Of a DNA stretch of 64,000 nucleotides, positions 14,610 to 58,625 are shown piece by piece; position 1 is the stretch's first letter; each line of letters begins with the position of its first letter. The DNA is from Crambe crambe (taxonomy: Eukaryota; Porifera; Demospongiae; Poecilosclerida; Crambeidae): the NCBI GenBank assembly GCA_963924555.1, contig OZ004596.1, positions 5,404,139-5,468,138 of the forward strand, written 5' to 3'. Position numbers and translations under genes: made by a program. The notes under the pieces were generated by a model that worked only from the letters and a program-made list of their open reading frames with translations, was not told where the DNA came from and searched no databases.

Positions 14610-16229
14610 TTAACAGCTGCTCATTTTCCAGTCCCCAGAATCACACATGTAGTCTTCAGGTCCTTGATTGGTTCCCTTGAGACAATTTTGGCCTTTCTGG
14701 CACCAACCGCAACCAGTGGCTTGGAGACAAGCACTGCACGATCCATGGTTAGCTTTAGCATTGCATGAATCACAGCTAGCGGTACACTCTTTCGGCACAG
14801 AGGTAGACAGAGGACAGGACCAAGGGTTGTTGTAAAAGAGGCAAGTGTAGTCTACAATTCGCTTGAAGAAGTCGTCAACCCCACTCTCTATGTCCGAGAA
14901 CGTGTTATAACTTATGGCAAATTCAGCTATCGTTTCTTTTAAGTTATTGATTGTGTTTGGGATGGTTCCGTATAACTCATTACCGCTTACATCCAATACA
15001 GTCAGGTTAACGGCATGGCCAAGGCTTGGGGGGAAAGTGCCTGAGAAGTTGTTACGCGAGAAATACAAGTTTTCCAGGTTTTTGCATTCATTGAAAATGT
15101 CAGGGATTTGGCCTGTGAATTGGTTATCGGAAACTTCCATATCCACCAATTTGCGCATGTTACATATGCAGTTTGGGATTTCACCTTTCATTGAGTTATT
15201 AAACAGCCTGAGAGAAATCATTTCCTTACAGTTGCAAAGAGATGGAGGAAATTCACCAGTGATTTTGCCATTGATCAGAATTAAGTACTGGACTTTTTTC
15301 CAGCTTGAGCCAATCCAAGAAGGTAGTGGTCCAGATAAACCATCCATCTCAACATTAAGTAGATTCACCAATGTGCTATAGGTATCAGGGATACTGAACT
15401 GGTTAAAGTTGTTATAAAAAGTCCACAAGCGCTGCATGTTAACCAACTTTCCGTAAGATGATGGCAGAGTACCAGTGAGTGCATTACGGGATACCACAAA
15501 ATCAGTGAGCATCACAGACTCTGATAAACCACTGGGAAGCTCCCCAGTAAGAGCATTGCTTGAAACTTCGAAAATCTGGAGGTTTGGTGCGCTGAAGGAG
15601 CGTGGGAAATAGCCTTTTATGTTGTTTGAGTAGAGAGCCAGCTGTGTCAAGTTGGGCATGTTAATCTCGGGGGGAAGAGAACCAGAGATGGAATTTGTAT
15701 TAACGTCCAGAATCTGCAAGGACTGCAATGCAAAGATTTGCGAAGGTATCTCTCCAGTCAGTATGTTATTGTACAGTCTCAAGACTTGCAGTGATGTTGC
15801 TCGGGCCAAATCAGAGGGTATAGAACCATCCAAGCCATTATAGACCAAATTGATCTGAATCACTCGACCTTCAATGCAGTACAGACCGAACCAAAAGGGA
15901 TAGGTACAGGGTTCACCTTTCATCCAGCCAGTATTGTTGACCCATTTTGGTCCATTTGTGGACTGATACAGAGCTTCCACTGCGGCACGATCCTCAGGAT
16001 TGGTAGGCGTGTCCTCAATAAACGACCCTTCAGGGCGCCTCATGGCTGCCACCAACTTCTCTTGCTCCTGGTGCAATTTTTTGTGGTATTTTATCTCACT
16101 TTGCTCCAGCATTGCTTCTCTTCTGTACTTTGCTTTCTGCATCTGCTCCTCGATGGTTTGCTTGGGTTGAGCTGCTGCCACAAGTGAACTCAGAAGAGAA
16201 CTCAACAGTAAACACAAAATAAGATTCAT
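14610..16229 (-). CDS. Secreted plant-type LRR protein with C-terminal PSI domain
   Basis: This is a single-exon gene of 539 residues in an intron-rich neighbourhood. A signal peptide (MNLILCLLLSSLLSSLVAAA) is followed by a charged helix. Then comes a cap resembling the plant LRRNT_2 type (DRAAVEALYQSTNGPKWVNN-TGW). About twelve ~24-residue repeats of the plant-specific LxxLxLxxNxLTGxIPxx class follow (e.g. LQVLRLYNNILTGEIPSQIF). The C-terminus is Cys-rich (SCDSCNAKANHGSC, then GCGWCQKGQNC), which reads as a PSI/plexin repeat. No transmembrane segment or kinase is present, so it is probably secreted or matrix-bound, with unknown ligand. Several Asn-x-Ser/Thr sites (NNT, NLT, NNS, NFS) suggest glycosylation. 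Confidence 0.82.
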   Translation of the reverse strand: MNLILCLLLSSLLSSLVAAAQPKQTIEEQMQKAKYRREAMLEQSEIKYHKKLHQEQEKLVAAMRRPEGSFIEDTPTNPEDRAAVEALYQSTNGPKWVNNTGWMKGEPCTYPFWFGLYCIEGRVIQINLVYNGLDGSIPSDLARATSLQVLRLYNNILTGEIPSQIFALQSLQILDVNTNSISGSLPPEINMPNLTQLALYSNNIKGYFPRSFSAPNLQIFEVSSNALTGELPSGLSESVMLTDFVVSRNALTGTLPSSYGKLVNMQRLWTFYNNFNQFSIPDTYSTLVNLLNVEMDGLSGPLPSWIGSSWKKVQYLILINGKITGEFPPSLCNCKEMISLRLFNNSMKGEIPNCICNMRKLVDMEVSDNQFTGQIPDIFNECKNLENLYFSRNNFSGTFPPSLGHAVNLTVLDVSGNELYGTIPNTINNLKETIAEFAISYNTFSDIESGVDDFFKRIVDYTCLFYNNPWSCPLSTSVPKECTASCDSCNAKANHGSCSACLQATGCGWCQKGQNCLKGTNQGPEDYMCDSGDWKMSSC

Positions 16230-16803
16230 GACCTGAAATTATCATATTAAAGCATAAACAGTTTTTCATAGTTTAGCTATAGCTAGTAAGCTACTGTCAA
16301 TTCTCATACCTTCAGCTGTGCTACCTTTTTTGCTTTGAAGTTGAAATACTGATAGCAGATGAGTTTTTCAGCAATCAAGGGCTGCTTTTATGATAGCTAA
16401 TGTGGAGGTGTAGCTAGCTAGGTAGGTGGGGCAGGATGAGAGCAAATAAACAAAAACCCACTTGCATTTCCTGCAGTAACTCATTCCATGTTCCATCACC
16501 ATGAATCAATATGCTTAGTCTGATGGATGCATTTTTCAGGTTCAAGGTATTGAGTACAACAGTGCAGTGATTACATTTTATATGTATAAACTGTATACAA
16601 AACCAGATAATGAAATTCATGTACTGTTGATTGGGAGTTGCTAGTCACGTTATCGCTATTCACATATAGAGACGTGCTTATTTATTCAGCCAAGCGCCAA
16701 TCACTGCCACTTTGGCAGGCTAGACAAAGATTGAAAGGTGGCTAGCAAAGGAACAACTTTTCGATTTGAAAAGCAACACCATAGGCATTGCGTGCTGGAT
16801 TTA
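16230..16803. promoter_or_regulatory. Divergent intergenic region, LRR gene/BCR
   Basis: This holds the 5' flanks of two divergent genes. The BCR frame is open back to 16735, where an in-frame TGA closes it, so the first 69 bases before the ATG at 16804 are readable but have no ATG. They are either 5' UTR or the end of a spliced exon. Confidence 0.4.
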
Positions 16804-31065: not shown

Positions 31066-33079
31066 TTATTGTTTTTGTTCAGGTGAGTGCTCTTCCATGA
31101 TGAGCACAGCTCTTCCATTTACTAAGCCTTGATCCAAATCATTGAGTGCCTGTGTTGCTTCTTTCAACCTATACTCTTTCATAAATGGAGGACTTATATC
31201 ATTCTCTGCCACCACTTTCACCAGTTCTTCAAGCTCATAAAGTGAACCAGTAAAGTGCCCTGTGTGAATAGAGGAACTAAGGGCAGCTAGAGGAAGTTGA
31301 AGTTCACCTATTCCTCCATAAAGACCAACCATAACATGAATGCCACTCCTAGCCAGCAATTTAACATTAAGAGCAAAAGTTTCAGTGGAGTTCACAAAGT
31401 CTAGAACAATATCAGGGTGGAATTGAAATTTCTCCTCAAATCTCTGCACTTGCTGATCCACTGTGTCTGCTGGACACATGTGAAAACTGTAATGAATGAA
31501 CTCAGAAACCTTTGACAGTATCACCTCTCTTCTGTCCATGCCCACCACTTTGACCCCATCACGCCCCAGACAAAAGGGGAGGAGATTCAGAGCCCACTGA
31601 CCCAGCCCCCCCAATCCACACACAGCCACAATGACGTCCCTCTTCCACTTGCACACTCTGTTGGCAACCTGCACGCACTTCCTGAGGGCAGAAAATGAAG
31701 TGAGGGCACCACAGGGCAAGAGGGCTCCCAAAGAGAATGAAATGCTCTCAGGAAGCTTCAAAACGTAACGCCAGTGCAAAACTTGCACAAACTCAGCATA
31801 ACCACCATCCAAATGGAAACCAACATCCTGAGTCAGCACAGGACAAAAGTTTGCATCCCCCTCCAAACAAACTGGGCAATTGTTGCAACCAGTCCATGGG
31901 TACACAATCACTCTGTCCCCAACTGATAAACAGCATGTTTCAGAAGCCTTTTCTCCCATGGTGTGAACCAATCCTGCTATCTCGTGTCCTGGAATGATGG
32001 GAGGTGTGCCCAACTCTGGATGGTCAATAAACTCGAAAATGTCACTGTCATTTTTACCAATCTGTGTCAATAGAAAGAAGAAAATGCATTATATCAACTG
32101 AGCTATTGTCCTGGGATTTCACTTTTCACTCTTTTTTACCCCATGAAATTTCCTGTTATGTACATCATGATTCTGGAAAACTTATGCAGGCTAATATTTA
32201 GTCCAATTATACATGTAATTATACCGAAACTTTAAAAAGATCTGGTTACCAGAACGATAGCCTGCCACTAATATTTTGGGGGTAAACTTCAAACAAAGGA
32301 CTCTCCTCTCCTCTGAACAATAAATAGGATGGACATAGCTATTAGAGACTACAAAAAGTGAGTGACAACTATTTTCTTTCTCTCCCTTAAATTAACAAAA
32401 GACCAAGTATACACCAGTTAACCATCAATGGCAGGATACTTGGGAAGTTGCACCAACTGTCAAAATTTTGAAATGAACATTTCCCTCAATGCAGCTTACC
32501 TTGTAGTGGAGAATGCTTTTTTCCCTTCCCTATTATGCTATGCTCCAATGCCAGAACCTCTGCCCTATTATGCTCAACAATAATGCCTATTATGCTTTTA
32601 GCTAATATTGATGTTTATTGTAGCATAATTGCAGCCTCTTTTAATCATCCATCATTTATCGGCAGCAAGTTAGCTTGCTTGAACATTTAGTAAGAAAACA
32701 GCAGCAGAAGACGGTTGTAATGATAGAATTTTTTGTTACCATGATGGCTACTCTAATTCAGCAGTTTAGCTATACAAAAAGGTACTCCATATCTGCAAAC
32801 CCCTGGAAGTAAATATGCCAGGTTTAACCCATTATGCCCAAAACTATGCCAGCATAATTTGCATGTCCCTACCTTGTAGTGCCCACGCCAAATATAGAGA
32901 TCGGAGTGACAGACCCCTGCAGCCTGGACCCTTACCAGGACACCCTCTGGAGGCAGTCCATCTATTGCATCTTGCAGGCTACGAGTTTGTAACTGAAGTT
33001 CTTCATCCGGTTTCCCTTTCAGGCTTACGATCACTTCAGCTTTGTACGTGGTCGATATAACTTTTATGCTCATCGCCAA
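31066..33079 (-). CDS. Zinc-dependent alcohol dehydrogenase-like protein, copy A
   Basis: Two exons (31066-32061, 32873-33079) give 400 residues of the medium-chain dehydrogenase/reductase superfamily. It should oxidise or reduce alcohol/aldehyde substrates with NAD(P). Catalytic zinc ligands are visible in AAGVCHSDLYIW, PGHEIAGLV and LLPCGALT. The structural zinc loop CNNCPVCLEGDANFC has all four Cys. The Rossmann motif is VCGLGGLGQWAL. The intron after GHYK is shared with copies B and C, so the three arose by tandem duplication. Compared with copy C the C-terminus is extended (EEHSPEQKQ). The substrate cannot be predicted. Confidence 0.88.
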
Positions 33080-36159: not shown

Positions 36160-37416
36160 TCAATCCATGACAAGCACAGCTCTTCCATTCACTAAGCCTT
36201 TCTCCAAGTACTTGAGTGCCTGTGTTGCTTCATTCAACTTATATTCCTTAATAGGAGGTGAACTTATTTTGGACTTCACTATCACCTTCACCAATTCTTC
36301 AAGGTCACCAAATGAACCAACGAAGTTCCCCGTGTGCATTGAAGCGCTTAGAGTAGCTAGAGGGAGTTGAAGTTCACCTAATCCTCCATAAAGACCAACC
36401 ATAACATGGATACCACAGTTAGCCAATATACCAACACAAAGCTTGAATGTTTCAGATGAATTCACAATGTCCAGGATAATATCAGGCTTGAAGTGAAATT
36501 CCTCCTCAAACTTTTCAATTTGCTGATCCACTGTGTCTTCTGGGGACAGGAGAAATGTGTTGTGAACAAGCCCAGAATTCTTCACAGCTTCTATCTTCTT
36601 TTGGTTAATATCCACGCCTATCACTTTAATCCCATCATTTCCACCCAGACAAAAGGGGAGGAGCTTCAGAGCCCACTGACCCACCCCTCCCAATCCACAT
36701 ACAGCCACAATAATGTCCCTCTTCCACTTACGCACTCTGTTGGCAACCTGCACGGACCTCTTCACAGCAGAAAAAGCAGTGAGGGCACCACAGGGCAAGA
36801 GGGCAGCCAAAGAGAAAGGAACACTCTCAGGACACTTCAGGAGATAGCAGTAATCTACAACCTGCACAAACTCGGCATATCCACCATCGTTACAAAAGCC
36901 CAGCTCTTTGGAAATTACAGGGCAGTGATTGTAATCACCTGCTTCACAGACTGGACAACTGCCACAGCCACACCAAGGGTATACTATAACTCTGTCTCCC
37001 ACAGAGAAACGGCCTTTCTTTGAAGCCTTCTTCCCCATAACATGGACCAATCCTGCTATCTCATGTCCTGGAACAATTGGATAGCCCATATTTGGACGTT
37101 CAGAAAATTTAAGGAGGTCGTCTTCATGCTTACCAATCTGTTAAAAATAATATTTTTAATTACTCAGGAGGTAGTTAGTTAATATTATGTCATGCATAGT
37201 CAGGCATGAATATCTGGTATACCAAAATTTAATTACTACCTTGTAGTGCCCTTGCCAAAGGTGCAGGTCAGAGTGGCAGACGCCAGCAGCCCGAATCTTG
37301 ACCAGGACACCCTCAGGAGGTAGTTTGTCTATGGCATCTTGCACACTACGAGTTTGCAGCTGAAGTGCGTCGTCTGGTTTCCCCCTGGGGCTGACGATAA
37401 CTGCAGCCTTGTACAT
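36160..37416 (-). CDS. Zinc-dependent alcohol dehydrogenase-like protein, copy C
   Basis: Exons 36160-37137 and 37240-37416 give 384 residues. It has the same fold and motifs as copy A: AAGVCHSDLHLWQGHYK, PGHEIAGLV, the structural zinc loop CGCGSCPVCEAGDYNHC, LLPCGALTAFSA and the Rossmann motif VCGLGGVGQWALKLL. It ends NGRAVLVMD. The intron position is identical to that of copies A and B but the intron is short (102 bases) and unrelated in sequence to theirs. Identity with copy A looks moderate, so the A-C duplication is old. The 3' flank (ctcaaaaaatatat...) is shared with copy B. Confidence 0.88.
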
Positions 37417-37677: not shown

Positions 37678-42145
<4,468 letters not shown>

Positions 42146-42492
42146 CTTCTAATGCAGAGTGTTGCAGTGGGATCTAAAGATAAAATTACAACTACTAAAT
42201 ACAACAATCAACAGAGCTGTGGGAAGTAAAGGGACTAACCAACCGGGCTTCTTCTTCCTTAAGATCAGACCATGTGTATTATTCCACGCATGCGTACAGG
42301 GCAGCAGCTGCAATCTTCCGCGCGCGCTAAGCTTAAGACGCGACGACACACATATTACGACATGACATGCGCGCGCAATTATATGGATCGACCACGCCCA
42401 TAAGATTGAGCAGAGCGATGAATATTATTTCTGCTAAACAACCACTTTGTTCAAGCTAGCTTGCAAATAATCTATCTTTTTCAAGTGTTAGG
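42146..42492. promoter_or_regulatory. Bidirectional promoter, PIWI/PX-SH3-SH2 gene
   Basis: 347 bases lie between divergent start codons. A CpG-dense core (about 42317-42375, with cgcgcgcgctaagc and gcgcgcaatt) stands out in otherwise AT-rich DNA. The promoter role is inferred. Confidence 0.5.
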
Positions 42493-45400
42493 ATGAATTT
42501 TGCAGAGACAAACCACAGTCCCACTTCCGAAAATGAAGAAAATGAAGAACCTGAAAGACCTTGGGTCAAATCAGTTGCAGTTCCTGAGAGCATCAAGAGA
42601 AAGATACCCTCAAAACATTATGTAAGTTATTTGTTTATTTGAGTGCAACCAGGCGTAAGGAGGGGCTGTCCTGTTTAATCACTGTGCATAGGTATAGAGC
42701 TAAATCCAGGCAGCATAGTGATACTTATTCTTGTACAGTGACATTAGTGATGCTACATTTACATTTACTAGGATTGTAGCTCCACCTGTGTATTGAGTCT
42801 AGCAATATGTGTATGTAATACACCACCTTTGCATGGCATACAAATATTATTAGGCTAACCCATCTCCACAGCAATCAGGTGTAATGAATATATCCACTAA
42901 TATAAAATGCAGATGTTGAGTCTAGGTGATAATACAATTATATGACACTATAGAAGCGAAGGAGTAGCGATTTAATGGTGTATTGTGGATGTGTGGAGAA
43001 CTAGAACTGATTGTTGGGCTTGTGCATGTAGTAAATGGATCTGGGTGTGTCACCTCTATCGTGCCTTCAGATCTCTAAGAGGTCGCATGTACCTTTGCTC
43101 TTGCAGTTGCCAATTTTCCACTTAATGAAGCTACACATCTTTTGTGCCACTTATTAAGAGCTGATGATCTTAATTCCAGATAGAGTGTTAATGAGAGTAG
43201 AGGTCTGTCACAGGAAAGGGGTATTTATCATGATTTATCAAGTACCCTTTTTGTTCAAATACAGGTCTATAAGGTGGTGGTGGACTGGACGAATGGAAAA
43301 AACATCATCATTTATCGTAAATACAGTCTTTTCTTCGATTTTGTTGTAAGTCAATCTGATAAAATGCCAAAGTAGAGCTTTTCTGTAAATGGAGAAGTGG
43401 TGTACGTAAAAAGTTCATATAAGTGTTCAACTAAGGATGAGATTACCAAAAGAAATCACCATTGTATCTTAATTACATACAACTCTTACAGTCCTTGTAT
43501 TGTATAGAGAAACATGCTGCTTTCCTTCTGTGGAGAAATGAGGTTTTCTTAGATGTGTAGTGGGAGTAATGCATGTGTGAGTACACGTTATAATAGTCAA
43601 GGAGGACAGAAAAAAGAAGGGTAAGGTAGTGATTATAATAACACACTATCCAGCAGCTGACTAGAGAGATGGGATGCAATGTAATAGTTAATTACACTAG
43701 CAGATATGCAGCCAACCAGTCATTTGAAGAATGTGTAGGATTCTTAATTAACTGCAATGACTGCTTTCTGAGGTCAGAAGGATTTACTTGGTTTCTGTTG
43801 GTATTATGCATGTGAAGCAATTACCACTACTAACTATCTGACGTTGGTCATCAGAGAATGATTTGAAATATCATCCACTCCTGCTCGTGCATTCAAAGTG
43901 TGCCTTCATTAGCAGATGGAAGCCATTGCAAGACATTTAAAAACATTTCACACACTGTTTTGAAAGATTAATCATGCTCTTTTGGGGTGTGTTAATGTAT
44001 AGAAATGCTCTTTCCCATAGTGGAGAGTAAGTATGGTGACGTGTCCCAAAGCTATGGTATACATTTAATCCACAATATCTCTCCATCATAGTGTGTGTTA
44101 GATCTAACATGGTCAGTTTTTGGACACAGGCACTAAAGTGTGCAGACTGCAATATTTAAGCCATTATCTCATGCATCCCATACATGGAGAGTGTTTCCAT
44201 AGTAATAGTTTCCATATGAACATGCCTCATTGGAGCAGCACTCCATACCTGACTGTGCCTCTTCCCCCACTGATCACACCCAGTTGGTTTCGGAATTTAC
44301 TTTTGACAGAGAATTCTTCAAAGGAATGTGTCACATGATAATATCATCATATCACCTGCATATCACATTCTTATGAAAACACTCTCTTGCACACTATGAG
44401 CCAGAACTCTGCAGATCAGAACCTCAAGGTTTAAAAACCCACTAGTGATCCAAAAACATCTGAGAATCAACAAAGCTAAATACCACAAGCTTGAATGGGG
44501 TGGTTTATTATTTGATGGAATTCTCTGGTGAATAGTGATGGTATGTAAACACTTATCCCTTCAAGAGTTGAAATAAGCTATCATTCTCCTTGATCGTTTC
44601 TTGCTGCAGATAAAACTGAATCAACTTGTGGCTAAGCTCTATCCTTCAGAACCAAAGAAAAACTTCCAACTTCCTGAGCTACCAGGTAAGAAGAAACCCT
44701 GATCTCTTAAAAGTATGAGATGTACTGTAAGATACTAAGAGGGAGTCCCTGACCTTATTCCTCGTTAAATAAATACTAGAAGGGTAGCATGTGAAACTTG
44801 ATCTGTCTGCCCATGCTGATAAACACCAGGTTGTATTCTGAACCCATCATAATGGGTGGTGATAAATTTGAACGAATCAATGTTTACCTCTTCTCTTACA
44901 GTATTTGACCTCTGGTCAGTCAATTCAGCTGTGTTGATGGATGCCTCACTCAAAATAATCAAATTAAAGTTGGCAGAATTTGACCAAATGCTTGCAAACT
45001 GAGAACAATGTGACTGTCTGATAATAGCTTTGGGATGAGAGATGACAGTGGTGCATGCATGAAAATCCTAGATCTTTATGCCAACAAGAGTCATTGTAGC
45101 TGCAAACTTTTAAATTCCCTAGCTCGTTAATCAGAAGAAGAAATGACATGTGATTCTTTGATCTTTGCATCAGCTGATCAGCATACATACTTGTAACGTC
45201 ATAGCCTGAGGCAGTCACTAGGATAAGCACTGAGAGTCACTTTGTTGCTTCAAATGAAGAGATTAGTATCTTGTCCATGCCCCCTTAGCTCAAAAAATGA
45301 TAATAATGTGTCTTATTCCTCAGGGCGTGTTCTCTTCGGACGCACCGAAGTACACCAGGTGGCAGAGAAGAGAAGGAGAAAAATTGAAGAATTTTGTCAA

Positions 45401-48400
45401 GTAAAAAAAAATTCAAATCCCTTGTTGATTAGCATTAAGGAGAGTATGTGTCCTCCTAGGCTACTAGCTTTTCCTGTTGGTAAATCACAGGGGGGATTCC
45501 TGACTACCACAGGAGGGCTGCATGTAGTGACCTCACACCATACGACTGCTATAGTCCTTTTAATAGGGCATCTTTGCATCAGCATATTTGGAATGAAAAA
45601 AAGGTTTCTGGTTCTGGTGATAGTTGATGTTCAAATAAGTCAAGGAGGAAAGGATGTAGCAATATGGAATCTATCTTTTGATTCTAATGATTACTGTTGT
45701 TATTGTGTTATTGTTGTTGTTGTTGTTGTTGTTGTTGTCAATAGAAAGTGATAGAATTACCTCCAGAGATCTCCCGAACCCACCTGGTCCTTGGTTTCTT
45801 CAATACTTGGCCGGATGACACTCTTCTGAAAAAGTAAGTTGCTCCAGTAAGGAAGGACTTTGTTTAAATTAAGTCAGCTATCTAGCCTATAATAACCAAA
45901 CCTTAACCACTGCCACTTGAATCTGAGAGAGTGGTCACTCTTCATACCACATTACTGGGATCGTCCTTGAAGACAGAAATTGGTGCACCTTTAGGGTGGT
46001 TAAGTATCCAGTTTATACTTCGACCACTGCTATTATTGGAGTGGTCACTCTGTGCCACATAAACATACAGGGCGTTTTTTTGTCTCAACTCAGACTTTTA
46101 AGCTGGATCTATAAACATATACTTCTAGCCTTTATTGCATCACTGAAGAGTGCAAGGTATTCAACTTGCACTCACTTTACAATCATAAGGATTCAGTTTG
46201 CATCTTCAGCAAAAATATTAAAGCAATATGCGGAATAAAATATGCTTTGACTTGTGGGAGGCATAAAGTTTGTTTTGGTGGCCATATCCTGGTTGCAGTC
46301 TGAGCTGAGGGATCTTGATTCAAGTTTGTTTTGCTTGCCCTTTTGCCATATCTTTCTCCTGAGCGACTAGCCTCTTAGAGGACCCTACGTGCATCTTGTT
46401 TGAATAAGCAATGCCTTATTCACTTCCACTACGGCCTAATAGATCCCTCATTGGGTATGGCATCTACAGAAATTGTAGGGGTGTACAATAGTCATGGAAC
46501 TAAAGGCACGTTCACATTTCTAATGTGTCGTGGTTCCCATGCCATTGCAAGAAAGAGTCTCATAATATCAGCAATAGTGAAAACTGTTGAATCCACATTC
46601 TGCAGCCTCAATGGTCCATGAGATATTATATGTAGTTTTCACTCCCACAGAGAACATTATAATATTATTATAGTATACTAAAATCAGTATAAGTATTAGT
46701 ATAATACTAAGATAAGTATACTAAGATTAGTATATTTTAGGTATACTAATATCATACTAATTATACTAGTATGCTGAGATTAGGTGTTCAAAGTATCCTG
46801 AGCAGTAACCAATTCTTATTCCCTTCTCCTCCACAGACCTTTTGGACGACACTCGCATGTCATTTCAGCTCCGGTAATCGCAGCACCTGGGGGACCTCGT
46901 TCCAAGTCTTCATCTCCTTGTGAGAGCGTCACCTCTTCCTCCAAGTTATCGGTCACTTCTCTTCCTGAAAATTGCACAACATCATCATCCTATAGGAACA
47001 CCTCCCTCTCTCCCTCACCTCCGCCCATCACTTCTCCCACTAGTGAGTTCAGGACCAATTCTCAGCAGCCCTAGCCCTAGCCCTAGCCCTCCCCCCCACC
47101 CCACCCACCCCACACCCCTATAGTATCTAAAGTGGAGTATTGATGGTCTGACCGAAATTAATATGGCAGTCCAATCTCTTAATCCAATTCCACAGTCTGA
47201 ATTATTCTGAAATTTCAGTAATTTCAAGAAGGGAGTGTTTATTACCATGAGGGGGAGTTACATGCATGTGTTCAGAATGATTTGACATCTGCACATTCTC
47301 TTACTATTTTGAACGGCTTTAAGGATCACTGACCTAACATAGTGGACATAGTTGAGGATTCTTCTTGTACTTGTCACAAGCCTAATAATAGCAATTGCTG
47401 TGAATCTGGCATGCATGTCATTTGACCTCCACACACACCTACGCTTCCCTATTTCTCTGCATGTCAACTTGAAGAGCTTCATAATAAGTATTTCGGTACA
47501 GATTCTTGTAAGATGCAGCCCCTCAGCTTTCTACCATACAACTGAACTTCCATATCCGTGACCCCAATCAAACATCAAAAGTTCAAATAGCGTGGTTGTT
47601 GTTATTAACAGTTTACCAGAAAAGGAATCAAGACGTTCTTTGTTTATACTTCTAAGTCCAGTGAAGTATCCTGGCTATTGATATGGAAGACTATAAGCTT
47701 TGAAATCTATATTCATTACTTATGTAGTCATCTCAGGTGACATTCTCACCAGAAATATTTAGGCTTGGTAATTGTAGAATCAGGTCGAGGGGGTGTTTTG
47801 GGGGCAAACCCAGTTGACCCAGTCGAGTCAAGGCAGTCCCCTATGAAGCTGTTTACTTCATTGTGGGTAAAAATTAGAGGTTTTGAGAGTTTCTGCAAGT
47901 GCTTGGGTGATTATACCTCCTTATTTCATGTTGCCATGTCACTATTTCCTCCAAGCCACTACACGGCCTGTTAAAGAAGGAAGAGGTTTATAAATAATTA
48001 AATCAAGCTTAGTGGACTTGGGACTCAAATAAACCAACAAGATCGTATCATTGTACCAGAGATATATAGGCTTTACACACCACAAGCGCTTCTTTGGCTC
48101 CAGTGGGACTCTTTGGGGTTGAACACAGACATCTGCAACCATGGAGAACTTATAAGTGCCAAGTGCCTCCATCTGGCAACCCAGACACCATCACAATACT
48201 TTTTATCTCCCATTGGACTTAAAAGGCCAACTTTGATCCCATGCCAAGGAGCAATTAACAAGAGCTGCAGGGAAATTTTTTATACATTTCATAATAACTT
48301 TTATTGATAATAATAATTGTTTACATCATTGCTAATCTCCAAAATGGAGGTAATGCAAGAACAATGTTGATATTAAATGTAGGGGAACTACACTCATGAA

Positions 48401-51400
48401 ATAAGCAATTACTGGTCATGTGGTTATACAGAGCTAGAGGAAGCCTCATAAGTTGTAGGAGCATATAAAAGCAGCTGCTGGCACTCAATCTTGCTAGTGC
48501 CAAGAAGCTAAAGAAGTGATTGCATAGTACACTATTAGCTTATAACAGAATTATCTGCTGCATTATAGTATAAACCAGCATAGGCTGTACTGTTGCAATA
48601 CTGTATATCTACTTGAGTCTCCTGAAACTAGCACAGCTGCCATTGGATTGCATCAGAAGCAGCTGCATTGAGGAATGATGGCTCTTGTTCTGCCTATTCC
48701 CACAATCCCTGCAATTCCTTTGTTCTATCCTCGTAAGTTTTGCTAATGGCATGCAGCTGCTGTGTGCTAATAAGCATGCAGCTGTACTACTTACTAGTAA
48801 GCTCTAATTTATACATAATTGGCCACTAACAGGTTGTCATTACTGCATGGTCTATAAGAGGAAGGGCCAACGTTGAGCTCTAAGATCAAGTTTCAAAGCA
48901 ATGACAAAAAAGCAATGACAAAAGCTCAACACTGATGATTGACTGCTGGCTGGCCATCCATGCCACATGATTCTAGAAGGTCCATGTCATTTAAGCATGT
49001 ATGAGAAGATGGATTTAAACTTTTGATTTCCACTATGCATTAGTACGCTGGTACATGGTCCATGTTTCCAGCTGGCTCTGCTACAATGAGCCATTGACAC
49101 CGTTTGCTATATAAAACTCCTAGACTAAATAACTGACCACCTCCCCCAACATGAAGCCAGTCAAAATATCCTTCACAGTGGATATGTTATAAGTAATTGG
49201 GAGCAAACTCAGCATCTTCTCCCAAAAATAGATGTAATTACAATAATCACATGACACACGTCTCTATCTCATCATTGAACTTGGTGTTCAAATAAATTTA
49301 ACATGGTATGAAAAATATTTTAATGACATTTTTCATCTGAATGAAGCAAATTTCAATGCTATAGGATTGGAATGACTTACATGATTTTAGATGACATGAA
49401 TTATTACACAGGTATGCATTGCTTAGCTTTACTAAGCCATCCTTGCTCTGTTTCACTAGCATTACCATCTATACTGCAATAAATTTTACTCCAATGGCTG
49501 GCATGGAGCCACAAGTAAATCCAGCTAACTAATCTTGTTTGTGCAGTTATACCACACATATCGGGACAAGAAGTGGACTATGTAGTGGCCTACAACCGAC
49601 TTTCCTTATTCTCTGTAGATTGTACCCCATTTCACACTTTCTCCTTATTCTACCTAATTAAACCACAGTTTTTGTCTGGTGCATGTGAAATCGTGTTGTA
49701 GTGTGTGCTACTAACTAAACCTCAATCCTTAATTCAAATATTCGAATATCCAAACAAGGTTTTATGCGAAATCATGCTAGATTCAAACAAGGCAGGTTGG
49801 TAATGTAGTGGTGAGGCACTTGGTGGGTTGCTGTCTGCCACTTACAGCTCAGTGTTATCAAAACTTGTCATCAAAGCAGACCAACGCAAGGTGGAGTTGA
49901 GGAAACCATGGCCACTGAATGTGGGGGAGTAAACTTAATTTTGGTTGAAGGCCAATTTCTCTTTGGTCTTAATTGGTCAGAATGATTTCATCTAGTTGGA
50001 TTCAAAGGTGTAAAGTAGTTGGTTTGTAGACTCATCTCTTCCCTGCTTTGCAGTCTCATTTATCACGTACCGTATACGAGTTAAATTTGGCGGTGTATTA
50101 AATTTGACGGTTTGGCGGTCCGTCTTGGAACCGCCAATAATAATGACCGCCAATATCTATAGCTAGGCGCCAGGCTACGGGCTGGGGGTGGGGCTTGAGT
50201 GTATATTGTGGAACAGTGCAAGACTACTAGCTAGCTCCGTTTCCAGCTATTTTGCGATCGTGATGTCTCTTTGAAAGTTCTTGAAGAAGGAGGAAGTGAG
50301 CAGGCAGCTGACAGTCACATCAATCTTGGAATGTTGCCAACGTTGCCATCTGATATTACTGCAACAGCATATGGGGTCCCCGAGTTTCCTTCTTCCCATG
50401 GATCAGCTGAATAACTCCCCCACATTTGGATTTCAGATAGTTTTGTATACGTAATAGCCTCGAACACAACTAGTCAAGTGAAACTCCATGGCTTGCTCCT
50501 GGCTTGCTAGCTCCTGAATGCAATGCGCGCGCAAGTACACGACAACGCGCTGCCGCCAATAATAATGTCTGCCAAAAGCCTTCCACGGTACAAACGCCAA
50601 ATAAAACTCCCGCCAAAATTAACTCGTATACGGTAGTCCTTTTGGAGTTGGACTTACAAAGTTCCTGCTAAAAAGTTGATATAGTTATTAATAACTTGCT
50701 AAGGTAGAAGTGATGACAAGTAAAGGTCAGAGCCTTCCAACCATACTGATTTATCAGAAATTTAGGCAAAGTCACTATACACATCATAATTATTGATATT
50801 ACTTAAAAATGGCTGAAAATACTGAAATTCATGGTAAAAATACTGAAAATGAGACAATTTATATTGAAATCAAAAGATCGGAGGCACTGAAAGTTTACTC
50901 TGCACATACATAAGTAATGACACTGAATTGTGTCATACAATGTAAGAATTTATACGGTTTCCTCCTCTCCTTGAGTTTATGTTGGACAAGGCTTGAGTTT
51001 TATGCTGGACAGTGCTGGTACAGTGGCTGGTACAATGGAGGGGGGGGGGAGAGCTTGGAAACATGCCACTATTCAATTAACAGTAGAGACGGTACATAAT
51101 ATTTGGTAGGAGGAGAACATGCCACAATCTAAACTTGAAAAAGTCTCGGTGCACACATTAACTAAACATTTGGCATGCATACGACTTCAATCACGAAGTC
51201 CTTCCTCAAGAGGAAGCAGCTGACACACCAGGGTGGAATTATAATATTATGAAAGTATATCCCTAATTGCATCTCCCTCTCCCCTGCCCCTCCTCTCTCC
51301 CTTGCCCCTCCCTCCTCTCCCTTGCCCCTCCCTCCTCTCCCTTGCAGCAATGGAGGCTATTATCTCTCATCCCGACGAGATGGAGCATCTGGAACAATAT

Positions 51401-53534
51401 CACGTCATCGCCAACTATGAGAGAAAGGACTCGCACCAAGTCAGCCTGGTCATCAACCAGCTGGTCCACGTCATCGAAAAACATGATACGGGTAAGTATT
51501 GCCAGCTGCTCTAGCTATGTGGGCCAATCACTGCTTGATCTATAGACTTGGGGTCATTTAGCTGGAGTATCCCCACCAATCACAAGCCTCACCAAATGCC
51601 AATCATGTTTTATCATCATCATCACAATTTCACCCTAACTGTGCCCCATATTTATTCCTAAGTTGCTCAATGTATTACATCAGAGTTTAATTGAAAAAGA
51701 GTGTTAACTTTTTTGTGCAATTACAAAGCATTACTAGTACTTGATGTTTCAGCTTGTAGGAGAACATTTCACAGTCTCCTACAAAGTGTTCATGTAATGG
51801 AACATCAGTTAGTCCCCATTAAATTAACAGCTCCTAAATGAGGTCACTTGGTCCTTCTCAGTTCCTTTTCCTTATTCGTCCCTAGCACATCCGTGACCTC
51901 ATGCTGTACCTTAAAAGCCTCTCAGACTAAATAACATACAAGTCTGTAGGTAAAGGGTCTTCTTTTTGAAGTGTCGTAACCATTACCTCACTTCCCTTAC
52001 TCAGCAAAGCTGGCGCGACACTGCATTCACGCTAGACTAAACTACAGCTTACATCACGACACATTTTACCTTCCGCACTGCACGAGCAGCTGCTTTGATG
52101 ACTCTACATCCCTTGGCATCCATCCAGTGCTGTAACAATCCAGCTGTTTATACAGTTGTGCATTGTATGTTGAGACTAACAAAGGTATTAGCTGGACCTG
52201 CCCTGAGACTATAAAATGCTATTGCATGATCTTCTTTTTCCTGTAAGGCAGTCACTATTCCAAGAGAGTTGAAAAACAAAGGCTTTTAGTCGAAATCAGA
52301 AATCAGTATAGACTCCAGCAGCTAACTAGTTAGTAACTAAGTACTGCCTAGCTCTCTTTAACAAGCTAGCTAGCTAGGTAGTCCTCTTTCTCTGATATCT
52401 CTCTAACTACTCTATGCTCTATCGACTGACTTGTAACTGAATTGAGTATGAATAATGTACGTTCTTCCGGGCATGCACGAAAGTCCAAAGTACGTGTGAC
52501 CATCTCCGATACTTATGTGTCTCTAGGTTGGTGGATGGTTATGTCAGATGATGAACAGGGATATGCCCCAGCATCTTTCCTGGAGCCGGTAGAGGGAAGT
52601 GGTTCTGATAGAGACATACATCCAGAGGATGACATCAGTCAAGGTGAGCAACTGTGTAGTATGATTCTGTGGGCGGGGCTTGTTGGTAGAGAGAGAGAGA
52701 GAGAGAGAGAGAGTTTTACTACTGAAATGGCAGGTTGGGCTGTGCCTAGAATGCAATGCTAAGTATATTACACACGGAGATATGTGACAAATGGATGCGC
52801 ACTCACTCCACCACTAAATAGTTGAATTAATGTTCTCCCAGGACAACACCCCATCCTTGACTACGCCCGCCAGCAAGCCCAGTCCTTCTCGTAGCACTCA
52901 CACCCCCACCCATGTAAATATTGTACTCAGTTATCTGATTAGTGGAATTTTTTTCGTGGGGATCTCATAATAGCAATGGTAGACTGCCATTCCCCAAGTT
53001 ATTTTTTGTGGGTATTAAAGTTCAATTATTACACCCATAACTGCTGGTACTCTAGAGGAGCAAATTTTGCCCACAGAATCTTACCTGGAGATTTAAATGT
53101 GTAGTGTATGAAGCAATGGAGACCTACATTGCTGAGAATGACGATGAGATTACGATGAAGGCTGGGGACAGAGTGGACGTCATCAGCAAGTCCATGGATG
53201 GCTGGTGGAAGATAAGGTGAGTCATATGATAGGGTCACATGACAGGGTCACATGACAAGGGAGTATAGCAGGAAAACTTTATGGGGGGTTCTTAATAATA
53301 GTGATTCACATTTGCAAAACCATTGATCTATGTCTGACAGTGTGTCCATTAAACTCTGTGTGTTTGCATCCATAAGTCTGAGAGTGTTGCTAATCACAGC
53401 CAGAGTTTAGTCTGAGAGTAAATCTGTTTACTGTTCTCCTGTGTGAGTGTGTCCTATTTGGACAAAGAGACTGAACTCTTCACCCTTACCTGGTGTTTTC
53501 TTTGTGTCTCGCATTGTCAGACACTGCTGGCATG

Positions 53535-53567
<33 letters not shown>

Positions 53568-56500
53568 CTTCCCAGTCACATGAGTCTATACACCACTGGC
53601 AAACTACTCTGTTATGTTGTGTTGGTAACTTTCAGTCACATGACAGTCACATGATTCTAATACATTTGCATAGATGTAATGGATGCACAGGCTTCTCTCC
53701 GGCTGCTCTTATTCGACGTAAAACCTCCATCAAACCAACTGATCTAGAGAACATTTATGAGTCAGAGAAGAGCATTTATGAAGGCCTGAATATTCATCGT
53801 CCTCCACCACGAAGGTAGAATCCTGTGGAGTAATGTCCCTTCCCTCCCTCCCATCTCCCCCTCCCTCCCATCACCCCCTTTCCTCCCTCCCTTCCCCTCC
53901 CCTCCCATCTCCTTTCCCTCCCTCCCATCTCCCCCTCCCTCCCTCCCATTTCCCTCCCATTTCCCTCCCATTTCCCTCCCATTTCCCCTTCCTCCCTCCC
54001 ATTTCCCCTTCCTCCCTCCCATTTCCCTCCCATTTCCCTCCCATTTCCCCTTCCTCCCTCCCATTTCCCTCCCATTTCCCTCCCATTTCCCCTTCCTCCC
54101 TCCCATTTCCCTCCTATTTCCCCCTCCCTCCCTCCCATTTCCCCTCCCTCCCTCCCATTTCCCTCCCTCCAATAACTATTGTACTTATTGCAGGAACACT
54201 ATTGACCGTTCTGCTGTGATGAAGGCCAAAGCTCGCTATGATATCCCTCGGACCACTGTACCAACCACACACCATGAGGCCAATAACCTTTACGTGGGAT
54301 CCAATGAGGGTGAAAGTGATGAGGACACGCCCAAGTGCTATCAGGTGGCAAAAAACACCAACAAAGTCAAGTCAATCATCAAACAGAAGGGTGCGTCTCC
54401 TCGGGTGGCCATGATGGGCTCGTCAACATCCTCCTCAGTGGATTTTGCAGAAGATGATCACATCTACGAAATGGAACCATCCTTGGAGGATGAGACTGAA
54501 ACAAAATCCTCCATTTACGAAAACACCGAATTCTCTTCCAAAGTGTGTCTCACTCGCAAAGCGTCCCTGCCCACATCTTTGCAAGTTTCCAGTCCTCCTC
54601 CTCCTCCAGCAACATCCCCATCACACCACTCTCGAGCAGGGAGAACTAAAAGCACTCCACTTTCACCTGAACATGTGTCATCCGGGGGGAGGCCGCAACC
54701 GGGGAAGGGAAAGCCTCTTAGGCACACCCCTGATGACTACGAGGATCCAGATAGAATTCTGGACATGTTGGAGAATGAGAAACTGGTGGAGGAGGTTGAC
54801 GACTATGTGGACATGGAGAGCAACGTCCATAATACCTACATCGATCCTGAGGATTTGAGGAGAGGAAGTTCAGGAAGCATTACGACCTCGTCTGGTAGCT
54901 TCAGTAGTGCTAAGAGAACTGAATCAAATTCCTCCGCACCAAGTAAGCAAGTTCTTATGGTATTAGTTACCCTTTACCCATTATTGTACATAAATTGATA
55001 CTCTTTACCTGTTATTTTAGCTACTACGTCCCCCAAGTTCAATGGAGTGAATTCCGTCGGTCTCGGGGGGACAATAACAGAACCTGTGTTCGATGACGAC
55101 TACATAGAAATGGACCCCCTTTATGTGGAGCCGCCATTGGAGGATGGTGATGATGACAACTCTGACACTCTAAAAGCTGACAAACGTAAGAAGAGAATAA
55201 TGATGTAGAAATTTTATTTATCTTCACGTATTTATAATACTCTCCCATGACTATGCCTTGGAGACTAGCAATCATCAAATTTATATCATCAATTAAATTT
55301 TTAGATACACCACCACCCAAAGGGTCCCCAGTATCCAAACGCCCCCTTCCCCCGCCCCCTTATTCCGGAAACTCACCCGTCTTCGAGAAAAAATCCATCA
55401 CAAGAACAAAGAGCTTGGAGAACCTCATTGCTTCCTTTGAGTCATCAAAAAATACATCACCAAAAAACCTCAGCCCTGAATCAAAACGCAAGAAGGTTCC
55501 AAATCCTCCCCCTCGCATACCTGCCCCCTTGAACCGTTTGACTTCTTCCCCCGCCTTCGATTTGGACCAAGGAGGCAAACCAAAACTCCACAACCCCACT
55601 AAGCAGAACCACGGGAGTCCAAATGGGGTGGAGTCACCTAGTAACTCCTCCCATTCTACCTCTAAAGTACGAGGGGGGCTACCCAGTCACCCACTGGAAA
55701 GAAGCAAATCCCCTCCTAATGGTCCCATTGTGTCTCACGCTGTTGGGAAAAGAGAAAGAGGGGAGGTGCCCTCTCATCATCCCCTGCAACGAGTTTTATC
55801 TCCTCCATCAAATGAGGATTCCTCACTGCCCAAGACGTATGTTGCCATGTCCAGTTATACCAGTCAGACCGAAGGATGCCTGAGCTTCAACGCTGGGGAC
55901 AAGTGCGTGCTGATTCAGCAGAAACAAGAAGGTTGGTGGTTGGTCAACATCGGCGGCAGAGAAGGCTGGACACCTGGAGAATACTGGAAGGAGGACACGG
56001 TGAGTATTCAAACCAAGTTGTGATCACCTTTTTGTAATTATCATTCCAGTCATGTGATAAATCATGTGACTTAGTACTTCAAATTGTGATTAATGCACGT
56101 AAAAACTAACTCTCTATGCCTTTTACAGAAGAGGGAATTCAACTTGCCCAAGCCTCCAAGTTTTGCTCCAAAGAAGCTTCCAAATGTCCGGAAACCCCGT
56201 AGTCACACGGTGGGCATGGATGCTTTCACCACGTCCCTTGACCTACCCTCCTATAACCCCAGCAAGCCTGAGAATACCAACTCCTCCTTGACTCAGAGTG
56301 CAGAAGAGCATCTCACCACTTCCTTGAGGGAGCCTCAACAGGGAAATCCCCCTAAGGGTCCTCTGCCTCCACTACCATCAGGAGTACAAAAAAGTAATAG
56401 AGCAAAAAAAAATTATTGTGATCTTTCAATTTAACACTCTCTTACTCCCTTAGATAAACCGGATAGACCGGATAGACCGGATAAACCAACAAAGCCACCA

Positions 56501-58327
56501 AAACCAGCCTTGCCTACCAAGCCGGCTAAACCGGATAGGACTAAGAAAAGTTCTCCTTCCCCTCCATCTCCTCCAAATGGTCGCAAGAAGCAACACTCCC
56601 CCCCTCTTCCCCCACGTAAGTAGGGCAAGCCATCACTATAGCTTGCCTTGCCCATTTTGGAGCAGACCAGTAGTCCATATTAGGTTGCTTTCTCTCTCAT
56701 GTGCAGCCAATTTAAGCAAGAATAAAAGTGTGGGAGTGTCTCTTAGTAATACGGAGGTGAATGGCCATACCCCTAATGTGGAAGGTACCATACCAATCAA
56801 TGATTATGAGGAACTTGATGATGTCAGCACTTTTTCCATTGGTAAGCCAATCAGTAATGACTACAATGTACTAGCCACCAGCTAGGTCACATGATCATAA
56901 AGGCTTTTGTAGTAGAGCAGCTAATATGGGTTGCACTAGGACCAATGTACCTATTATATCACGTCATATCCACATTAATTATTGCAACAGTTAACATTTA
57001 CATCCTGCTGACATCATGGCACCATATAGCATGCGTCTATTTCCTACCCCAGTGCTCCAAGCAGCCTGACTAAATTCTGTAGTCATAAATGTACATCCTT
57101 TTCCATTTGATGCACACTTCCTGTTATGACATCATCAGGATATCCTGAGTATATATGTTATAAATAGTCTGTCTCTAACGTGCAGTAGTATAAGTGAAAT
57201 CTGAAGTATAACTAACTAGACTAATGTCTTGCTGCAGTACTGTTAGAATGATGACTAGCACTAATTCATATAGCATAATGTTGGATAAATCTCCACCCAC
57301 TGCAGAGAATGCTCCCTGGTTTGCTGGCAAGATGGAGCGAGCACAAGCAGAACAGTTCCTCATGGAAGTGAGTGGCTAGTACATCATAGCTTAAGACCTC
57401 CATCTATAAATAACTAAGATAATAATATTGCAGTATCAATGTGCATAAGTCACTGAGCTTTCAGCTAAGTGGCACTGATATGCTGAGGTGGTTCATAAGG
57501 GAGCTTTCTCTTAACATAATTATCTGGTGAAATTGAGAAATCATGTGTCCTGTTGTATTGTGCAGCTGCACACATTGGGTTTGACATGTCGATTAGTTTC
57601 CTGCAAGTGTCTGGGCACTAGTTACTCAACTAATCCTAAGAATACTGCATTGTTAATGCAAGACTTGTATTTTAATCACTGCAAGTAGGGGCACCTTACA
57701 AAAAAAACAAGGCCATCTGTGGTTGTACTAAACAAACAATAAAGAGATGACACTTGAATGATGCAATATCTGGTAATTAGTGAGATTTCAAACAGATTGA
57801 TGGACATTTAATAGGAAAGCTAACAGGAAAGACAATCACACAATGAGTCAATGCATTTTTCATTCCCAGCACCACCAAATTAAATGGTTCTTCTTACCAG
57901 AGCATGATCAGCAATAAAATAATATGAAGTTGAAAGTTTTCAATGAATCTCTTTTATGTTACACAGCATGGGAGGCAACGAGAGTTTCTCATCAGAGAGA
58001 GGACAAGTAAGGATGGCTTCTATGCGCTCTCTGTCAGATATCATTACAAGTTAGTGTCTAGGGGAAGTTCTGTCCAATTACAATGATTGAGTTACTTTCT
58101 TTTTTCCCCTTTTCAGTTACAAACACTTCAACATTGACCCCAAGGATGGGCAGTTTGTCATGGGTGCCCTGACCTTCCCAAGCATAGAACAAATCATCCA
58201 GCACTATCAGCAAAACTCACTTTTCATTCATGACGGACAGCCCGTTGCTCTCAGTCAACCAGCAAAGAAGCGGTCACGTGCCTCAGATGCAAGCAGATAC
58301 ACACCCAAGGCCAACTCAAGCTCCTAA
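42493..58327 (+). CDS. PX-SH3-SH3-SH3-SH2 adaptor protein (Tks-like with SH2)
   Basis: Nineteen exons give 1,232 residues: 42493-42621, 43265-43345, 44610-44685, 45324-45400, 45745-45833, 46837-47042, 51348-51491, 52527-52643, 53105-53216, 53674-53814, 54194-54942, 55021-55185, 55305-55999, 56129-56393, 56454-56615, 56707-56841, 57306-57367, 57967-58049, 58117-58327. Domains: PX (~28-155; VYKVVVDWTNGKNIIIYRKY, a phosphoinositide-binding fold); SH3-1 (~232-290; VIANYERKDSHQ...WWMVMSDDEQGYAP); SH3-2 (~307-362; YEAMETYIAENDDEITMKAG...GWWKIR); a 500-residue Ser/Pro linker with Tyr motifs; SH3-3 (~877-925; GWWLVNIGGREGWTP); a Pro-Lys repeat; SH2 (~1115-1210; APWFAGKMERAQAEQFL, FLIRE Arg, KHFNI). 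PX plus tandem SH3 resembles Tks4/Tks5 (SH3PXD2) and p47phox, but those lack SH2; SH3x3-SH2 resembles NCK. Probably a membrane scaffold for actin or NADPH-oxidase complexes that also reads phosphotyrosine. Confidence 0.9.
45705..45737. repeat. GTT trinucleotide run
   Basis: About ten gtt units, seven bases before the acceptor at 45744, so it lies within the polypyrimidine-tract position of that intron. Confidence 0.85.
46655..46785. repeat. Degenerate TATACTAA-type tandem repeat
   Basis: Diverged units such as gtatactaagat, gtataagtattagtat and gtatactaatat follow one another. It is AT-rich and intronic. Confidence 0.65.
47067..47090. repeat. CCCTAG hexamer array
   Basis: Four tandem ccctag units followed by a C-rich run, just after a splice donor. 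It differs from the metazoan telomere unit CCCTAA by one base. Confidence 0.85.
50068..50635. mobile_element. MITE with 26-base inverted repeats
   Basis: The left end taccgtatacgagttaaatt and the complement of the right end taccgtatacgagttaattt differ at one position; both continue ttggcgg/ttggcgg. If the outermost TA is the target duplication, the element is flanked by TA on both sides, as in Tc1/mariner-type elements. Subterminal motifs ccgccaataataatg recur near both ends. No transposase frame is present, so it is non-autonomous. Confidence 0.8.
51275..51347. repeat. Pyrimidine tandem repeat forming a splice acceptor tract
   Basis: About three copies of a 22-base unit containing cctcctctcccttgcccctc end exactly at the cag acceptor of the first SH3 exon. 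The tandem repeat itself serves as the polypyrimidine tract. Confidence 0.8.
52687..52713. repeat. GA dinucleotide microsatellite
   Basis: About thirteen ga units in an intron of the PX-SH3-SH2 gene. Confidence 0.9.
53536..53565. repeat. GT dinucleotide microsatellite
   Basis: About fifteen gt units, intronic, between the two exons of the second SH3 domain. Confidence 0.9.
53821..54175. repeat. Pyrimidine-only minisatellite (CCCTCCCATTT-type units)
   Basis: Some 350 bases of almost pure pyrimidine on the plus strand, built from units such as tttccctcccat and ccttcctccctcccat. It fills nearly all of the intron between exons ending 53814 and starting 54194. The long frames on both strands here are repeat artefacts. 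Such mirror-like purine/pyrimidine tracts can form triplex DNA. Confidence 0.88.
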
Positions 58328-58625
58328 CACTCCTACCTTTTATCACTCACTTCCTTGACATTTTATTTCTTTGTGTATAATGTTAGTAACAAACTTCTTT
58401 TTTTTAAAACTGATTGAATTTTTTTTTTGTGGCAATAACATCAAAGAATTTCACAATAATAAATACTCTGCTGTTAGTGATGGCAATGATGACAGTTTTT
58501 CTTTTAATGGCAGTTTTAATTTCACAATGAATGCATGTATGAATTAGGCTGCTTCTTGTCGCTCTGCTGTTAAGTGGAGATTCAGGCCAGGGACGTGTGC
58601 AGATCTATATGTGTCTGTGGGTGTG

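Follow-up and report, generated by a model that had tools for sequence, protein, structure and literature searches.

Organiser proteins and the Crambe crambe locus

The proteins p40phox, NOXO1, p47phox, TKS4, and TKS5 form an organiser family, whose members are described as a PX domain followed by SH3 domains in the available portion of PMC7663256. According to the same portion, Tks4 binds Src via the SH2 and SH3 domains of Src, which recognize a pYEEI site and a proline motif in Tks4. The core of the p47phox autoinhibitory region (AIR) is RGAPPRRSSI, and the PPR core is also found in Tks4 (PMC8348221, in the part available). p47phox-like genes are reported from a choanoflagellate, a cnidarian, a mollusc, and deuterostomes, that of the cnidarian encoding multiple SH3 domains, and SH3PXD2 is stated to have diverged after the emergence of chordates (accessible text of PMC2121648). 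Here, we describe a gene in a 64,000-nucleotide stretch of the genome of the sponge Crambe crambe (contig OZ004596.1, positions 5,404,139 to 5,468,138), hereafter called the window. This gene, at 42493-58327 on the + strand, probably encodes a membrane-directed, p47phox-related organiser scaffold with a C-terminal SH2 domain.

The gene model, spliced from genomic DNA, consists of 19 exons, and all 18 introns are GT-AG. The joined frame is 3,699 nt long with one stop at its end and encodes 1,232 aa, which is the same set of phase-compatible exons that a first-pass annotation of the bare sequence had put together. In a Pfam-A scan of this model, PX (1e-9, 39.2 bits, cut-off 21.6), SH3_1 (2.3e-27, three stretches), and SH2 (1.4e-17, 64 bits, cut-off 21) were each found above the cut-off, bearing out the annotated domain content. 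These scores are far above chance level. The features of the gene are as follows.

42493-45833 (+), exons 1-5: N-terminus and PX domain (Pfam match aa 55-141)
46837-47042 (+), exon 6: end of the PX region and Ser/Pro linker
51348-52643 (+), exons 7-8: SH3-1
53105-53814 (+), exons 9-10: SH3-2 and start of the linker
53804-54203 (+): AIR-like PPRRNTI, aa 388-394, codons split by intron 10 (53815-54193)
54194-55185 (+), exons 11-12: linker with tyrosine motifs, six of them Yxx[MP] (YDIP, YEDP, YVDM, YIDP, YIEM, YVEP)
55829-55993 (+), inside exon 13 (55305-55999): SH3-3, aa ~871-925
56129-56393, 56454-56615, 56707-56841 (+), exons 14-16: proline-rich linker, ending in NDYEELDD...
56842-57305 (+), intron 16: phase 1, the junction that carries the fusion claim
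56842-56885 (+): extension of exon 16 by 14 codons of intermediate coding score up to a stop, giving a form without SH2
57278-57305 (+): possible own start of a separate SH2 gene (MLDKSPPTA), 9 codons, 0.25 of coding samples as low
57317-58207 (+): SH2, aa 1119-1193, in exons 17-19 (57306-57367, 57967-58049, 58117-58327)
58458-58463 (+): AATAAA, 3' of the stop at 58327

A further candidate exon at 52842 (GQHPILDYARQQ) was left out, as its frame hits a stop or exits in the wrong phase. Exons 8 and 9 join directly in phase without it (partly judged by eye).

Relationship to p47phox, Tks proteins, and paralogues

The PX and SH3 domains were compared with the sequences of solved structures in PDB. 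The PX domain matched p47phox first (3.1e-14), followed by a designed CISK PX (1.7e-7) and PI3K-C2 (4.5e-7). The SH3 pair aligns over its full length with the p47phox pair (1.7e-25), and the second-best match is a single Tks5 SH3 (2.7e-14). For SH3-3, p47phox was again the best match (3.7e-12). Myosin IB and 'SH3 multiple domains 1' came next (5.9e-10), ahead of Tks5 SH3s (1e-8 and 2e-8).

When the PX-SH3-SH3 part was searched against the genome (143 Mb, 119 contigs), 46 exon-level matches were obtained, and the window gene was the sole close copy. One paralogue, L035 (G000:C15:4498000-4507999, minus strand), has the Tks4/Tks5 layout of a PX and five SH3 domains, with a stop right past the last SH3. 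Two PX-SH3 genes stand side by side, ~145 nt apart, at L037 (1800-10000) and L042 (1-1011) on C19 (~6.085-6.095 Mb), ~640 kb from the window gene. Gene 2 of L037 contains a PX and three SH3 domains by Pfam, while gene 1 was judged via tblastn and by eye. A PX exon is also present at L038 (C21). Gene structure is shared with L035: ahead of exon 10, six of the nine introns are identical in residue and phase, introns 5 and 8 lie near L035 counterparts of equal phase, and intron 6 is without a counterpart. The window PX is 32% identical to p47phox, 39% to L035, and 36.5% to L037 gene 2, and the SH3 pair is 37% identical to p47phox and 42% to L035. These values are too even for a nearest relative to be named.

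As in p47phox (NCF1), an N-terminal PX is followed by an SH3 pair, a PPRR motif past the pair, and a later proline-rich stretch, whereas the window protein adds a linker of ~500 aa with tyrosine motifs, SH3-3, and the SH2. With Tks4/Tks5 (SH3PXD2B/A), it shares the PX, the SH3 pair, more SH3 on long linkers, linker tyrosines, and the intron positions common to the Tks-like paralogue L035. However, it has three SH3 domains instead of four or five, and its C-terminus is an SH2 and not an SH3. NCK likewise has three SH3 domains and then a C-terminal SH2 but has no PX, and its SH3s are closely packed. SLP-76/BLNK-type adaptors also combine tyrosine motifs, a proline-rich stretch, and a C-terminal SH2; they are not known to contain PX or SH3. 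The N-terminal PX, the p47phox-type SH3 pair, the PPR motif, and the shared gene structure are all traits of the p47phox-related family. The family is otherwise PX plus SH3 without SH2, and because the window protein has an SH2 domain if the junction is real, we file it as a variant of the p47phox-related organisers, not as a plain member.

The first-pass annotation had stated that known PX-SH3 organisers lack SH2 and that NCK, with its three SH3 domains and SH2, has no PX. The former agrees with the family description of PX and then SH3s in the available portion of PMC7663256. No description of a PX-SH3-SH2 order was found in the literature searched (titles and abstract openings), an absence that is not proof of novelty. 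PMC12730246 mentions neither SH2 nor any sponge word.

The junction between the SH3 and SH2 parts

Splice-site and coding scores suggest that the PX-SH3 part and the SH2 part probably belong to one gene, which may or may not also produce a short form. The annotated 1-to-1 phase across 56841 and 57306 was confirmed by the phases of exons 16 and 17. The accompanying statement that no stop separates the parts is true of the spliced message only, because the unspliced sequence contains a stop at 56883-56885 and an in-frame TAA at 57209. In score models trained on the other splice sites of this gene, donor 56841 reaches 5.6 bits, which places it in the top 5.2% of regional GTs, and acceptor 57305 reaches 5.4 bits (top 6.1% of AGs). 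Both scores are usual for the gene, whose acceptors span -3.5 to 11.5 bits. Two of the 13 GTs in the exon-16 frame reach 5.6 bits, and phase 1 is found only at 56841. Two AGs stronger than that at 57305 lie further upstream (exon starts 57053 and 57139) and are out of phase.

Alternatively, the locus may hold two adjacent genes, namely a PX organiser with three SH3 domains that ends at 56885 and a small SH2-only adaptor that starts at 57278 or in an unseen first exon. Exon 16 does continue for 14 codons to a stop, with a coding score that 15% of coding samples fall at or below and 11% of intron samples fall at or above. The ATG at 57278 shares the reading frame of the SH2, and the 9 codons that it opens are indistinguishable from coding, being too short to be judged coding or not. 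The L037 gene pair (the first gene's end was set by eye) also shows that PX genes can lie ~145 nt apart in this genome. However, acceptor 57305, in phase with donor 56841, is the only one of seven AGs in 57212-57320 with at least 5.4 bits. The coding scores for starts at 57224, 57248, and 57251 point to non-coding sequence (0.000, 0.004, and 0.007 of 4,000 coding samples as low), and the next in-frame ATG, at 57332, would remove the start of the SH2. None of 3,000 coding samples scores as low as the 31-codon open frame ahead of exon 17, and 76% of open intron samples equal or exceed the score of this frame. We consider two genes unlikely.

The same read-through tail could instead belong to a single gene with two forms, a full one with SH2 and a short one that retains intron 16 and stops at 56885; splicing would then switch phosphotyrosine reading on or off. 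The intermediate coding score of the tail is consistent with this, and the tail brings an additional tyrosine (SNDYNVL). On the other hand, neither AATAAA nor ATTAAA is present in 56885-57305, although three other gene ends likewise have no such signal within ~480 nt or in the gap to the next gene. A regulated short form is possible but doubtful, and a single gene whose message runs into the SH2 is the reading we follow below.

The SH2 domain and its origin

The SH2 contains the Arg of FLIRE, which had been pointed out in the first-pass annotation and is seen in the translation, and the His of KHFNI. Both residues have a role in phosphotyrosine binding, and the domain is predicted to bind phosphotyrosine. 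Among the best 60 of 275 PDB matches, RASA1 scores 81.7 bits over two domains (best single 42.9), SHP2 57.1 bits over two domains, and NCK1 56.5 bits with one domain, followed by PI3K p85, SYK, and PLCG at about 55 bits. NCK1 leads the single-stretch matches of this set by ~1 bit. The same genome has three Src-like SH2s, one ABL-like, and one SHP-like SH2 (named by eye from translations), as well as an NCK-like gene at C14 (L050, also named by eye) whose SH2 is split elsewhere than in the window gene.

By-eye intron comparisons were not used as evidence for the origin of the SH2. In them, the position of the window intron that follows FLME differs by one base from that of an intron of the RASA1-like L058 (second SH2), and the second SH2 intron of the window gene occupies a position different from that of the intron in the PLCG-like SH2 L054.

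The window SH2 together with SH2 queries from L001, L002, and L023 was searched by tblastn against seven loci (L035-L038, L042-L044); queries from L006, L019, and L022 were excluded because their excised sequences contained stops. The search returned one match, of E 0.94 in L038, in a method that an SH2 split over short exons could escape. Since no SH2 was detected at L035 or at the PX gene with three SH3 domains, a gain of the SH2 in one paralogue is favoured; loss in the others is also possible. The first-pass annotation had left the choice between an ancestral state and a lineage-specific fusion, and the ancestral option has found no support here. An ancient animal origin of the SH2 architecture followed by losses elsewhere seems very unlikely, given the paralogue search in this genome and given that the p47phox-like genes of choanoflagellate, cnidarian, mollusc, and deuterostomes are described without a single occurrence of the word SH2 in the accessible text of PMC2121648.

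AIR-like motif and linker tyrosines

The sequence following the SH3 pair is HRPPPRRNTIDRS. It contains PPRRNTI at aa 388, which resembles the p47phox core. When the 511-aa linker that separates SH3-2 from SH3-3 was shuffled 50,000 times, PPRRx[ST]I arose in a fraction of 0.0002 and plain PPRR in 0.02. A PPR motif (AIR/PTAM) C-terminal to the SH3 pair is thereby present at the motif level only. Gene 2 of L037 has QPPRRVSV following its SH3s, and no PPRR was seen by eye in 455 translated aa of the Tks-like L035. As a separate observation, most of intron 10, the one that interrupts the codons of this motif, is a pyrimidine-rich tandem repeat (53836-54167).

Thirteen tyrosines are found in the 511-aa linker. 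Six are in a Yxx[MP] context (shuffle mean 1.7, P 0.004), and seven have at least two acidic neighbours (shuffle mean 3.2, P 0.02). For the two linkers together, the P values are 0.016 (Yxx[MP]) and 0.008 (acidic context). This excess of tyrosine motifs is moderate evidence, because the shuffles keep plain composition and the contexts were picked post hoc. Particular kinases or partners can be assigned to these tyrosines only by inference. The proline-rich linker of exons 14-16 has class II PxxPx[RK] matches at aa 1018-1039.

A possible link to NADPH oxidase and tyrosine kinases

A Nox2-type catalytic subunit, a trait that goes with a Nox organiser, is found in the genome: pieces of the Nox2-like gene L040 match cytochrome b-245 heavy chain (3.8e-24) and Dual oxidase (7.3e-5). 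By eye, L039 resembles Duox, and L041 resembles Nox5. A NOX2-like gene has been reported in a sponge (PMC5372347, in the part available). Together with the AIR-like motif, the presence of L040 makes a link of the window protein to NADPH oxidase plausible, in keeping with the annotated bearing on oxidase organisers.

We propose the following mechanism. At rest, the SH3 pair would be closed on the PPRR motif. Phosphorylation beside the motif would open the pair, and the opened protein would be held by its PX at phosphoinositide membranes. A Src/Abl-type kinase could then phosphorylate the linker tyrosines to recruit SH2 partners, while the protein's own SH2 could bind either an activated receptor or other, phosphorylated molecules of the same protein. 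The SH2 would thus couple a PX-anchored, PPRR-autoinhibited scaffold to tyrosine-kinase signalling in cis. Whereas vertebrate Tks4 meets Src via the SH2 and SH3 of Src, the scaffold here would carry an SH2 of its own. It might act on a Nox2-type oxidase, on actin assembly, or on both, among which we make no choice. More tentatively, a sponge-grade lineage might have evolved a one-chain reader of phosphoinositide, proline motifs, and phosphotyrosine with p47phox-like autoinhibition, through which tyrosine-kinase signals could control podosome-like actin assembly or a Nox2-type oxidase with no need for Src or NCK as a separate bridge; this broader idea is speculative.

Several points weigh against such a scaffold. 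The p47phox-type and Tks-type core and the SH2 that the first-pass annotation had joined in one chain are real, but the chain itself is proposed from splice-site and coding scores on genomic DNA. From the counts and percentiles, ~0.1 chance GT/AG pairs of such strength would be expected in matching phase, and the junction is therefore not decisive. The ~145 nt between the two neighbouring PX genes contain neither AATAAA nor ATTAAA, so that a short gap and a missing signal say little; being weak, arguments for one gene from poly(A) signals or gene spacing were set aside. The alignment of the SH3 pair plus linker does not extend into the p47phox autoinhibitory region beyond the short motif, to which the AIR-like point is consequently confined. 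The SH2 appears to have no clear closest family. A phylogeny of it had been proposed, and in the resulting tree of 18 rows (the window, 13 same-genome, and four human pieces) no starred group includes the window row. The p22phox partner of p47phox was not found in this genome either. Its profile gave two matches of 19.5 bits (cut-off 25) in frames of 715 and 718 aa, with similarly sub-cut-off matches in an E. coli control, and the human protein gave no match. Both searches had no positive control, and exon-by-exon searching can miss p22phox. Finally, relatives were sought in bacterial and archaeal assemblies only, where none of 16 pattern matches was confirmed.

The first-pass annotation had assigned the protein to an early animal. 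The assembly gave 14 exon-level matches to Wnt, which marks it as an animal. It gave only three matches to the nuclear-receptor DNA-binding domain and 30 to the homeodomain, both being lower bounds from exon-by-exon counting. Numbers as low as these are demosponge-like and fit the assignment. If the window gene yields one message, the p47phox/Tks family would already be diverse in a sponge, with PX plus five SH3, PX plus three SH3, and PX plus three SH3 plus SH2 in one genome, and one family member would have taken an SH2 into its chain. The five-SH3 paralogue L035 suggests an older date for SH3PXD2 than that given in the accessible text of PMC2121648.

Neighbouring genes in the window

An N-terminal exon of a PIWI-family gene lies at 41471-42148 on the - strand (Piwi_N 9.6e-13). 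It is head to head with the PX gene, and the two starts are ~350 bp apart (start set by eye). Further away on the - strand, 14610-16238 is an unbroken 542-aa leucine-rich-repeat frame with a Cys-rich tail (LRR_1 3.6e-24), which looks plant-like by eye. Two similar zinc-type alcohol dehydrogenase frames are found at 31066-32088 and 36160-37140, both on the - strand. At ~59.9 kb (-), an HRDF-like kinase stretch was seen by eye, and a convergent kinase gene may follow the end of the SH2.

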